Shown here: positions 23,679 through 51,984 of the stretch, piece after piece | Numbering within the stretch: the stretch's first letter is position 1 | Layout of the letters: each line of letters opens with the position of its first letter | NCBI GenBank assembly: GCA_024635655.1 | Contig: JAGXIL010000024.1 | Span: forward strand, 62,001-126,000 | DNA: 64,000 nucleotides | DNA from: Gillisia sp. | GTDB lineage: Bacteria; Bacteroidota; Bacteroidia; Flavobacteriales; Flavobacteriaceae | Reading direction: 5' to 3' | Notes under the pieces: model-generated | The model's input: only the letters and a program-made list of their open reading frames with translations | Databases searched by the model: none | What the model was told of the DNA's origin: nothing | Program-made: the position numbers and the translations under genes

Positions 23679-23776
23679 ATTCGTGCACCTGACTGCCGCA
23701 GAAAGATTCGCGGTTCATTTTTTTAAAGTGGCATTTTAGAAAAGCATTAAAAAATCATTCGTGCATTCGTGGCTAA
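23679..23776. repeat. Tandem copies of the ATTCGTGCATTCGTGGC repeat, one interrupted
   Basis: An intact copy lies at 23757-23776. About 78 bases upstream a second copy is split: ATTCGTGCA (23679-23687), then 19 extra bases starting CCTGACTGCCGCAG, then TTCGCGGTTC. Both copies are followed by TTTTAA(G)AGTGGC, so the whole unit is duplicated. The insertion resembles the mini-palindrome at 37931-37950. Confidence 0.7.
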
Positions 23777-27978: not shown

Positions 27979-28011
27979 AGACCTCACAGGTTTTGAAAAC
28001 CTGTGAGGTCT
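27979..28011. repeat. Perfect 33-base palindrome just after argD
   Basis: AGACCTCACAGGTTTT and AAAACCTGTGAGGTCT are exact 16-base inverted arms around a single G. It begins seven bases after the argD stop. It could act as an intra-operon attenuator or be a copy of a dispersed palindrome; there is no T-run directly after it, which argues against a simple terminator. Confidence 0.8.
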
Positions 28012-28065: not shown

Positions 28066-28126
28066 GATCCTGAAACAAGTTCAGGATGACGATAATCAGA
28101 AAATAGATCCTGAAGCAATTCAGGTT
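28066..28126. repeat. Two copies of the GATCCTGAAACAAGTTCAGG palindrome
   Basis: A full copy (28066-28090) is followed 15 bases later by a diverged one (28106-28126, GATCCTGAAGCAATTCAGG). They fill part of the argD-argF' gap. The same palindrome recurs before argH and, as a variant, after dnaK. Confidence 0.8.
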
Positions 28127-29125: not shown

Positions 29126-29274
29126 CTGCGGGATCTGCGAAAGACATTAGAGAAAATTTGCGGGAAACAAAACTGAAATTCTGCGAAAATCTGCGAGATC
29201 TGCGGGAGACAATATAGGAAGGCTGCGGGAAAAAGCCCACCCCGCCCTGCGGGCACCCCTCCCCGGAGGGGATT
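29126..29274. repeat. CTGCGGGATCTGCG-type tandem repeats and a GC-rich repeat module
   Basis: The gap between argF' and argB holds several near copies of TCTGCGRGATCTGCG (29126-29219), followed by CCCACCCCGCCCTGCGGGCA...CTCCCCGGAGGGG (29235-29271), one copy of the GC-rich module seen at eight or more other sites in the window. No gene is supported here. Confidence 0.75.
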
Positions 29275-31169: not shown

Positions 31170-31335
31170 GATCCTGAAACAAGTTCAGGATGACGTAAAT
31201 TGAGAAAACTCACAGATTCCGAAACAAGTTTAGGATGACTATTTTTGGTTGCCAACACGTTAGATCCTGAAACGAGTTCAGGATGACGATTTAAGGAAAA
31301 TAACACGTTAGATCCTGAAACAAGTTCAGGATGAC
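31170..31335. repeat. Four tandem copies of a 25-base palindrome between argE and argH
   Basis: GATCCTGAAACAAGTTCAGG(ATGAC) occurs at 31170-31194, 31215-31239 (degenerate), 31263-31287 and 31311-31335. Three of the copies are preceded by AACACGTTA. Periods are 45, 48 and 48 bases. Read on the minus strand it encodes the familiar spurious HPELVSGS peptide. See the rejected CRISPR reading. Confidence 0.9.
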
Positions 31336-32663: not shown

Positions 32664-33030
32664 CACGTAACCACCCTACCTACGGCAGGCAGGCCCCTCC
32701 GGCAAAGCCGTACACCCCTCCTTTATAAAAGGAGGGGAGCTTTTGGGTTTTCTAACTTGGAAGATTTTCCTTAAAAATGAGAAAAACGGCTCCTTCACTT
32801 TTTCAAGGGAAGGTGGATTAATCGGTAAAAGGAAGTTTCTCGTTACTAAAAAGCTTCAGCCGATTAAGACGGATGGGTTGAGGGGGAATATGATGATTGG
32901 TGTTTTTGGAAAAAGTAGAAATTGAATTTCTATTAATTCTTTTTCTAGAATATTCCGTCAGGATAAACCACGTAACCACCCCGTCCGGCAAAGCCGTCCA
33001 CCCCTCCTTGAAAAAGGAGGGGAGCTTTTG
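32664..33030. repeat. Two copies of a CACGTAACCACCC...GGAGGGGAGCTTTTG repeat, one carrying an insertion
   Basis: The 592-base gap 32644-33235 holds no supported gene. Copy 1 (32664-32744) and copy 2 (32969-33030) share CACGTAACCACC, CCGGCAAAGCCGT and a hairpin-forming ACCCCTCCTT...AAGGAGGGGAGCTTTTG. Copy 1 has about 18 extra bases (TACCTACGGCAGGCAGG) between CACCC and CCTCCGGCA. A third partial copy, AAAGGAGGGGAGCTTTT, lies at 33145-33161. The stem-T-run could act as a terminator for argH. Confidence 0.75.
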
Positions 33031-37435: not shown

Positions 37436-37850
37436 AAATTGCCACGAATGCACGAATGTCTTTTAATTATGAGTGCGCAAAAAGTTTAGCCACTAAGGCA
37501 GAAAGCCACAAAAATTCACTAAGTCATCATATGAAAATTGTCTTTAAACCATCCCCTCCGGGGAGGGGTGTCCGGAGGACGGGGTGGGCTTTTTTTTTAA
37601 TCAACCATAGAATTCTACCTTTTCCAAAACCTTGGTGTTTCCTGGTGCTCCTGGGGTCTTTGTGACTAATAATAACAACTTAAAAAGTTTAGCCACGAAT
37701 GCACGAATGTTTGTCTTTATAATATGAGTGCGCAAAAAAATTTAGCCACTAAGGCAGAAAGGCACGAAGTTTCACTAAGTATTTTTATATGAAAAAAAGC
37801 TTTAAAACAATCCCCTCCGGGGAGGGGTGTCCGCAGGACGGGGTGGGCTT
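37436..37850. repeat. Composite modular repeat locus 1 (modules A-B-C-D-A-B-C)
   Basis: Module A is GCCACGAATGCACGAATGT (37441-37459, 37692-37710). Module B is GAGTGCGCAAAAA(A)...TTTAGCCACTAAGGCAGAAA...CACTAAGT (37470-37524, 37726-37780). Module C is TCCCCTCCGGGGAGGGGTGT...GACGGGGTGGGC (37552-37590, 37811-37849). Module D, TTTCCAAAACCTTGGTGTTT...GGTGCTCCTGGGG...GTGACTAA (37621-37669), lies between. The same C-D-A-B-C order appears inverted at 51678-51984. This fills most of the gap 37429-37978. Confidence 0.9.
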
Positions 37851-37921
37851 TTGTCTAAATTAATGACTACGAACTAGCGTCACATATTGAACGTACAAAC
37901 AAAGGGGTCTTTCCAAAAAAT

Positions 37922-37960
37922 ATTCGTGCACCTGCCTACCGCAAGGCAGGTTCGTGGCTA
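37922..37960. repeat. Module A copy interrupted by a 20-base mini-palindrome
   Basis: ATTCGTGCA (37922-37930) and TTCGTGGCTA (37951-37960) are the two halves of the reverse-strand module A. Between them lie exactly 20 bases, CCTGCCTACCGCAAGGCAGG (37931-37950), whose ends CCTGCCT/AGGCAGG are inverted repeats. Removing the 20 bases restores the intact module seen at 23757 and 51813. Confidence 0.85.
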
Positions 37961-51668: not shown

Positions 51669-51677
51669 TTAGAGGAA

Positions 51678-51984
51678 TGCCCACCCCGTCCGGCGGACAC
51701 CCCCCCCCCAGAGGGTGTTTTTAACACGCTTTTTCATATTAAAAGATTTAGTGAAACTTAGTGCCTTTCTGCCTTAGCGGCTAATCTTTTTTGCGTACTC
51801 ATATTAAAACAACATTCGTGCATTCGTGGCTACCACCGACGTTTAGTGGTTAAACTTTTTCAGTTCTTTTTTAGCCACAAAGACACCAGGAGCACCAGGA
51901 AACACAAAGTTTTGGAAAATAAAATAGCATTCATTATAAACAAAATGCCTTCCCGTCCTGCGGACACCCCTCCCGTGGAGGGGA
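51678..51984. repeat. Composite modular repeat locus 2, inverted relative to locus 1
   Basis: Read on the minus strand the order is C (51984-51947), D (51918-51871, CCAGGAGCACCAGGAAACAC on plus), A (51830-51812, ACATTCGTGCATTCGTGGC on plus), B (about 51800-51743, CTGCCTTAGCGGCTAATC on plus), C (51717-51678). This is the same C-D-A-B-C order as locus 1 at 37552-37849. It fills most of the 475-base gap between the amidohydrolase operon and the Nramp-like gene. Confidence 0.88.

Follow-up and report, generated by a model that had tools for sequence, protein, structure and literature searches.

How can a palindrome of only 20 nucleotides come to lie inside another repeat without costing its host a base? 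The question is posed by a 64,000-nucleotide window (G000:C56:62001-126000), the whole stretch of DNA analyzed here, taken from a Gillisia draft genome (G000; 3.46 Mb, 98 contigs, 82.4% complete). On the + strand, the left half of a repeat that we call host A (ATTCGTGCA, 37922-37930) is separated from its right half (TTCGTGGCTA, 37951-37960) by CCTGCCTACCGCAAGGCAGG (37931-37950), a 20-nt imperfect palindrome with 7-bp arms (CCTGCCT/AGGCAGG) and a 6-nt loop; read on the − strand, this hairpin stands directly 3' of GAA. In an in-place fold, an A and a T of the host lengthen the stem to 8 bp, with a predicted energy of −8 kcal/mol and z values of −1.9 and −2.3 for the two strands. The unsplit host, ATTCGTGCATTCGTGGCTA, is intact at 23757-23775 and 51814-51832 on the + strand and at 37690-37708 on the − strand, the last about 220 bases from the filled copy, and it recurs with one mismatch at 37439-37457 (− strand). 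None of 100 shuffles reached these four unsplit matches (shuffle mean 0.01). The initial annotation had described a clean insertion with zero bases lost or duplicated, judged from intact copies at 23757 and 51813; this description is borne out, with the qualifications that the palindrome is imperfect and that the second copy starts one base higher, at 51814.

With up to three mismatches allowed, the hairpin itself is found only once in the window (one match arose in 1 of 100 shuffles), and the whole draft genome holds one further match at up to two mismatches, on contig C42. CCCTACCTACGGCAGGCAGG (32674-32693, + strand), which lies beside another repeat, is a weak candidate for a decayed second hairpin in the window. 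Host A also occurs within a composite block of small repeats (GCCACTAAGGCAGAAAGGCAC..., GCGCACTCATATT..., host A, and CACAAAGACACCAGGAGCACC) that forms a long inverted repeat at window positions 37441-37873 and 51669-51919. A dispersed GGGAGGGGTGTCCGCAGGACGGGGTGGGC-type repeat is found in both orientations at 29227, 37534, 37793, 46813, 46976, 51671, and 51938; an Rfam search returned only two subthreshold serC-leader matches, both to the neighboring repeat of this type.

The same point of host A has received hairpins repeatedly. Across the window's genome, the pattern TTCGTGCA-N(0-30)-TTCGTGGC identifies 42 copies: 35 are empty, one carries a single extra A, and only six carry a hairpin, so the 20 bases are not a regular part of the host, a possibility that the initial annotation had singled out for checking. 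The six inserts measure 19, 21, 20, 20, 19, and 21 nt and are all of CCTGCC...GGCAGG type; their interiors all differ, and three have one or two arm bases changed. Wobble pairs occur on either strand among them, and no consistent folding strand can be assigned. Two further filled copies, in L008 and L096, have an altered flank.

Beyond this genome, host A is present in 10 of 16 genomes from the genus, counting the window's own, with filled copies elsewhere only in G011 (two). An insert of any kind, 1-30 nt long, between ATTCGTGCA and TTCGTGGC was found in 4 of 397 family genomes, so that host A is rare outside the genus. The four differ in what they hold: seven places in the window's genome (the six hairpins and the extra A), seven in G330 (six single extra A and one 10-nt partial host copy), one 23-nt hairpin in G111, and a 4-nt insert in G179. 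A scan of named genomes for host A together with CCTGCC gave 11 loci, 10 of which have a hairpin at the same TTCGTGCA^TTCGTGGC point, some with an arm mismatch; because the scan required CCTGCC, it measures spread and not frequency. These ten come from Flavobacteriaceae, Chitinophagaceae, Litoribacter, and one unplaced Bacteroidetes MAG, and three of them are the G011 and G111 copies again. The insert positions in G011 and G111 agree with those in the Flavobacteriaceae MAG contigs JAENXB and JANQNQ, an agreement by which the family sampled here is taken to be Flavobacteriaceae. A deltaproteobacterial match in the scan (L078), whose insert is no hairpin, was read as chance in GC-rich DNA.

Host A is one host among several. 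The looser pattern CCTGCC-N(4-10)-GGCAGG matches 38 times per strand in the window's genome, against one match for the reversed pattern, and at the 35 distinct places read the hairpin was found within other, unrelated repeats, although at least three of these places (L014, L041, and L090) look like chance matches. At least four further unrelated repeats in this genome are split by the same hairpin family. The host CCCTGAA^TTTATTTCAGGG is filled at C32:9090 and exactly empty at C50:50013 and C50:50189. A second host represented in the window, TCCTGAAACAAG^TTCAGGA, is filled at G000:C51:19493-19532, and its three exact empty copies all lie in the window on the + strand (28068-28086, 31172-31190, and 31313-31331), together with an empty copy that has an ACGAG loop (31265-31283, + strand). 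GGGAAG^GTGGCATTCCG (GGGAAG^GTGGC) and ACGGAAGG^GTTGC are two points of one repeat, seen both filled and empty in L002 and L097. L098 has TTCGAG^TGAATTTTTTC filled twice and, with one change, empty, and two hairpins stand in tandem at one site there; TTTGGAA tandem arrays also serve as hosts. In G177 (L172-L181), a multicopy host, GCCCGACCCTTGTGGTAA^CGCCC, which may resemble an integron attC-like site, is filled in the copies seen, these stretches having been chosen for the hairpin.

The precision of the joints was quantified by an empty-copy comparison. The 126 sites compared comprise 122 with intact CCTGCCT/AGGCAGG arms (19 in the window's genome, 11 in the congener G001, and 92 in other family genomes, congeners included) and four degenerate sites of the window's genome; the set excludes loci L050-L086 and L114-L141 as well as any site flanked by under 40 nt. 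An empty copy was defined as at least 19 of 22 joined flank bases matched within 957 kb of sequence (overlapping stretches, several genomes pooled), so that it may come from a different genome than the filled site. After removal of matches overlapping any hairpin, 47 of the 126 sites have an empty counterpart that differs by no net base: 19/23 in the window's genome, 3/11 in G001, and 25/92 in the others; the remaining 79 have none in the compared 957 kb. Re-paired left and right flanks, cleaned in the same way, gave 4, 4, 6, 2, and 1 sites. Spacings from −9 to +12 other than zero gave 0-13 sites each in the cleaned comparison (1-6 for −1 to −6), and the peaks at −7 and −8 (12 and 8 sites) are attributed to tandem 7-8-mers. 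Before cleaning, the counts were 48/126 for empty copies and 5, 7, and 9 for re-paired flanks; the site removed, L189, had a hairpin end matching itself. A spacing table on the 48 sites alone agrees, that set being selected on the outcome. Target-site duplication, by which a MITE would be recognized, was not found at these joints, the net spacing being zero in 47/126.

These sites also describe the element. The core palindrome of the family is CCTGCCT(GCCGGC)AGGCAGG; lengths read from 16 to 23 nt, with 19-22 nt in 116/122 sites. At the eighth stem pair, the 122 sites, mostly found via their intact arms, show 62 Watson-Crick, 6 G-T, 13 A-C, and 41 other combinations.

Entry is not indifferent to sequence. 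GAA lies immediately 5' of the hairpin, on either strand, at 12/19 sites in the window's genome (0.9 expected), 4/11 in G001 (0.5 expected), and 15/92 in the other genomes (3.8 expected); the expected triplet counts are taken from the same flanks, and the sites are not independent, several sharing one host. The target preference is weaker outside the window's genome. In the 92-site group the commonest 5' triplet is GCG (22/92; 2.9 expected), much of it from the G177 host GGTAA^CGCCC. The leading flanking triplets are GAA, GCG, GAG, and TAA, and TAG occurs at 1/19 sites of the window's genome. An orientation-free fit to 74 de-duplicated sites recovers a purine-rich stretch at −3 to −1 and T at +1 (log-likelihood 1.10 versus 0.29-0.47 in controls); the same fit to 30 de-duplicated viral-contig sites shows no clear preference (0.98 versus 0.51-0.90).

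The family is widely but unevenly distributed. CCTGCCT-N(4-8)-AGGCAGG occurs in 114 of 299 sampled family genomes, compared with 3 for the reversed-pattern control, and reaches a maximum of 36 places per genome; within the genus, copy number is 0-19 across 16 genomes, that of the window among them, and 8/16 hold any. The perfect 20-mer was found in 33 stretches of viral contigs; many of the 37 viral-contig contexts read are GC-rich, and some again lie within tandem repeats or tRNA-like sequence. For the congeners, 20 stretches were scanned and 16 of them aligned to five loci (L294-L297 were scanned without alignment; in L281 the downstream gene was not found). In 15 of the 16 aligned orthologous spacers, host repeat and hairpin are both absent. 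The exception is L288 (G012): here the TTTGGAA array known from the window's genome follows a stretch that looks like a decayed hairpin, perhaps an old insertion that the two genomes share. The TTCGTGCATTCGTGGC host has no copy in any of the 20 stretches, and L291 contains a GC-rich palindrome unrelated to the hairpin family. Within the literature collection searched, the exact strings of hairpin and host matched no paper, and none of the papers listed by broader searches describes the element.

The comparisons above show clean, site-preferring, recurrent insertion into unrelated hosts. We consider it probable, from sequence comparison, that the insert is a tiny nonautonomous mobile hairpin of about 20 nt that spreads via a single-stranded DNA or RNA hairpin, moved by a trans-acting activity; of these elements, the single-stranded intermediate and the activity in trans are what we infer from the pattern of insertion. 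The hairpin would fold as a single strand (ssDNA or RNA) and spread in that folded form. An activity supplied in trans would then either cut and join it into a target strand or copy it there, at a point 3' of GAA or a similar purine-rich triplet and often at the loop or stem edge of another hairpin. The geometry is best matched by a single-strand reaction of the Y1/HUH type, since there is no target duplication and a short target lies 5' of the hairpin, but no Y1 gene is tied to the hairpin; an RNA route, or a general activity in repair or replication, may take the place of HUH-like chemistry. We would extend this reading further only tentatively and with considerable doubt: a bare hairpin of about 20 nt, devoid of a terminal tag, a second end, or a linked transposase, may be a mobile element of much of Bacteroidota and beyond, GC-rich viral contigs included, that enters loops and joints of structured sequences such as REP hairpins and tRNA genes cleanly via ssDNA or RNA, served by a general cellular activity and not by a dedicated transposase.

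One alternative would make the hairpin an ordinary REP that a REP-associated tyrosine transposase (RAYT, Y1) moves, or once moved, in trans. HUH chemistry would fit both the GC-rich hairpin and its clean insertion next to a short target, and the search for a Y1 transposase that the initial annotation had proposed does find two RAYT-type genes in the window's genome (L048/L096 on G000:C72 and L049/L100 on G000:C31). One scores 104.9 bits against the REP-associated tyrosine transposase model (cut-off 80), the other 54.4, under the cut-off. Yet each has palindromes of its own, different from the hairpin: one gene has three of AGACCTCACAGGTCT... type on either side, and the other has CTCAAAGTC...GACTTTGAG-type palindromes on both sides, most of them on one. 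A single copy of the palindrome of the C72 RAYT, AGACCTCACAGGTTTTGAAAACCTGTGAGGTCT, lies in the window at 27979-28011.

Nor does Y1 presence track hairpin number. All 19 other genomes with at least 10 hairpins were compared with 19 hairpin-free genomes, the latter hand-picked among those at least 99% complete by no fixed rule, with several eligible ones passed over; Y1 presence was the same, 11/19 versus 11/19. Of the eight hairpin-rich genomes lacking a Y1 gene, six have a completeness of 94-99% and the other two are incomplete, at 64% and 73%; no Y1 match at E 0.001 was found in G177 (32 hairpins, 99% complete) or G204 (15 hairpins, one contig, 99%). Scanning 61 stretches around Y1 genes, which cover 60 of 104 Y1 matches (L049 and L100 hold one gene), revealed CCTGCCT-type hairpins near the gene in L307 alone. 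L307 was rejected as a RAYT flanked by the hairpin: its hairpins belong to a flanking segment that is duplicated, and the gene is accompanied by palindromes of its own. L138 has a single CCTGCC match of another form. The foot of the hairpin, moreover, bears no constant GTAG or CGTC tag. We reject a present-day RAYT linkage on the strength of the separate palindromes and of Y1 not following copy number, and we regard the wider explanation, past movement included, as unlikely. The initial suggestion of a specific mechanism, for example a REP-associated nuclease acting on a hairpin, accordingly survives in its first half: six of 42 copies filled at the same point and the other clean hosts argue for a precise, recurrent, specific process that acts on a hairpin and leaves no target duplication, but the Y1 half finds no support in the two RAYTs or in the genome comparison.

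Another alternative dispenses with Y1 altogether: the element may spread in RNA form, with the hairpin entering DNA or transcripts by insertion or by copying. Several hosts have secondary structure and are plausibly transcribed, among them REP loops, tRNA-derived pieces, and one tRNA-Met variable loop. In tRNA operons of G204 (L160 and L195), G190 (L206), and G226 (L191), the gene is followed by repeats of a 3' piece of tRNA-Thr or tRNA-Gly, and the hairpin lies within the T-arm region or next to it. In front of each repeated piece stand a small inverted repeat, formed from the GGTCACG/GGTCGCG-like stretch of the tRNA itself, and a CCTGCC hairpin, a layout common to different genera. Tails of tRNA-Arg occur both empty and filled in G027, and a filled one occurs in G257. 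In a viral contig (IMGVR_UViG_3300033148_008720; L350, 2239-2330), the variable loop of a tRNA-Met(CAT) holds the perfect 20-mer at AGG^TC, where the hairpin forms a long variable arm; the remaining arms stay intact, and ARAGORN still calls the gene. Against an RNA route, TTTGGAA-type arrays are not obvious RNA targets, and the few divergent host A inserts show no compensatory changes. We think it improbable that RNA is the form in which the hairpin spreads.

The polarity of the change could also be reversed, the filled form being the original repeat unit and the empty copies precise deletions of the hairpin. The hairpin's presence at the same TTCGTGCA^TTCGTGGC point in 10 of the 11 scan loci, from several Bacteroidota groups, would fit such an origin, in a scan that required CCTGCC. 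This explanation is very unlikely because 35 of 42 host A copies are empty, the same hairpin occupies unrelated hosts, and the host A joint has no direct repeats whose recombination would excise the hairpin and nothing else; slippage from one TTCGTG motif to the other would take out more. Chance or convergent GC-rich terminator-like stems in intergenic DNA can be set aside as extremely improbable: palindromes are common in these intergenic regions, but 114/299 genomes against 3/299 for the reversed pattern, and an exact insertion point in multicopy hosts, above all the host A same-site series, contradict it.

The mobile hairpin reading invites comparison with known small elements, and the nearest known kind appears to be the cyanobacterial small dispersed repeats (SDRs). 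Elhai et al. reportedly described SDR4-6 of Nostoc and its relatives in 2008. SDRs are about 20-27 nt long, are inserted cleanly within other repeats, tandem heptamers and SDRs themselves included, and share a secondary structure backed by compensatory changes. We know of no identified mover for them, and an RNA route was once suggested. The hairpin resembles SDRs in its length and in its clean nesting within other repeats, including the tandem doublet of L098. Unlike SDRs, it is a near-perfect palindrome from another phylum, with a purine-rich target and with hosts that include REP-like loops and tRNA pieces; its sequence probably also differs from theirs. SDR5 is also discussed in PMC4390886.

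REP and REPIN elements with their RAYTs are, according to PMC3733652 and PMC3116915, extragenic dispersed palindromes of about 20 bp, and the former notes REPs nested inside other palindromes and CGTC REPs apparently lacking a dedicated transposase. The hairpin likewise appears to be a dispersed extragenic palindrome, in keeping with the 20-40 bp expected of a REP. It differs in that its flanking triplets vary with the host where a REP has a constant GTAG or CGTC tag, in having no linked RAYT in the 61 stretches, and in usually standing as a single hairpin; CGTC REPs resemble some hosts, not the insert.

The IS200/IS605 family moves by single-strand Y1 transposition 3' of a short target, with no target duplication and with a hairpin near the joint. 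The element described here shares the position 3' of a short target and the lack of duplication, but it has neither gene nor second end, totals about 20 nt, and has no linked Y1 gene. Yeast mitochondrial GC clusters are presented in PMC4478555 as mobile, GC-rich palindromes of small size, with fixed flanks that are likewise short and a mover that is not known; set against that account, our hairpin joints differ in showing no duplication.

As a mobile DNA, the hairpin may be one of the smallest known. The cyanobacterial SDRs left the question of how so short a sequence, about 20 bp, can move at all. That question becomes testable with the present family, which is independent and widespread, offers dozens of filled/empty pairs and a target preference that can be read in one genus, and ranges from 0 to 36 copies per genome. 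For the genomes that carry it, the family means that REPs, tandem arrays, and tRNA pieces can themselves be interrupted by a second, smaller element.
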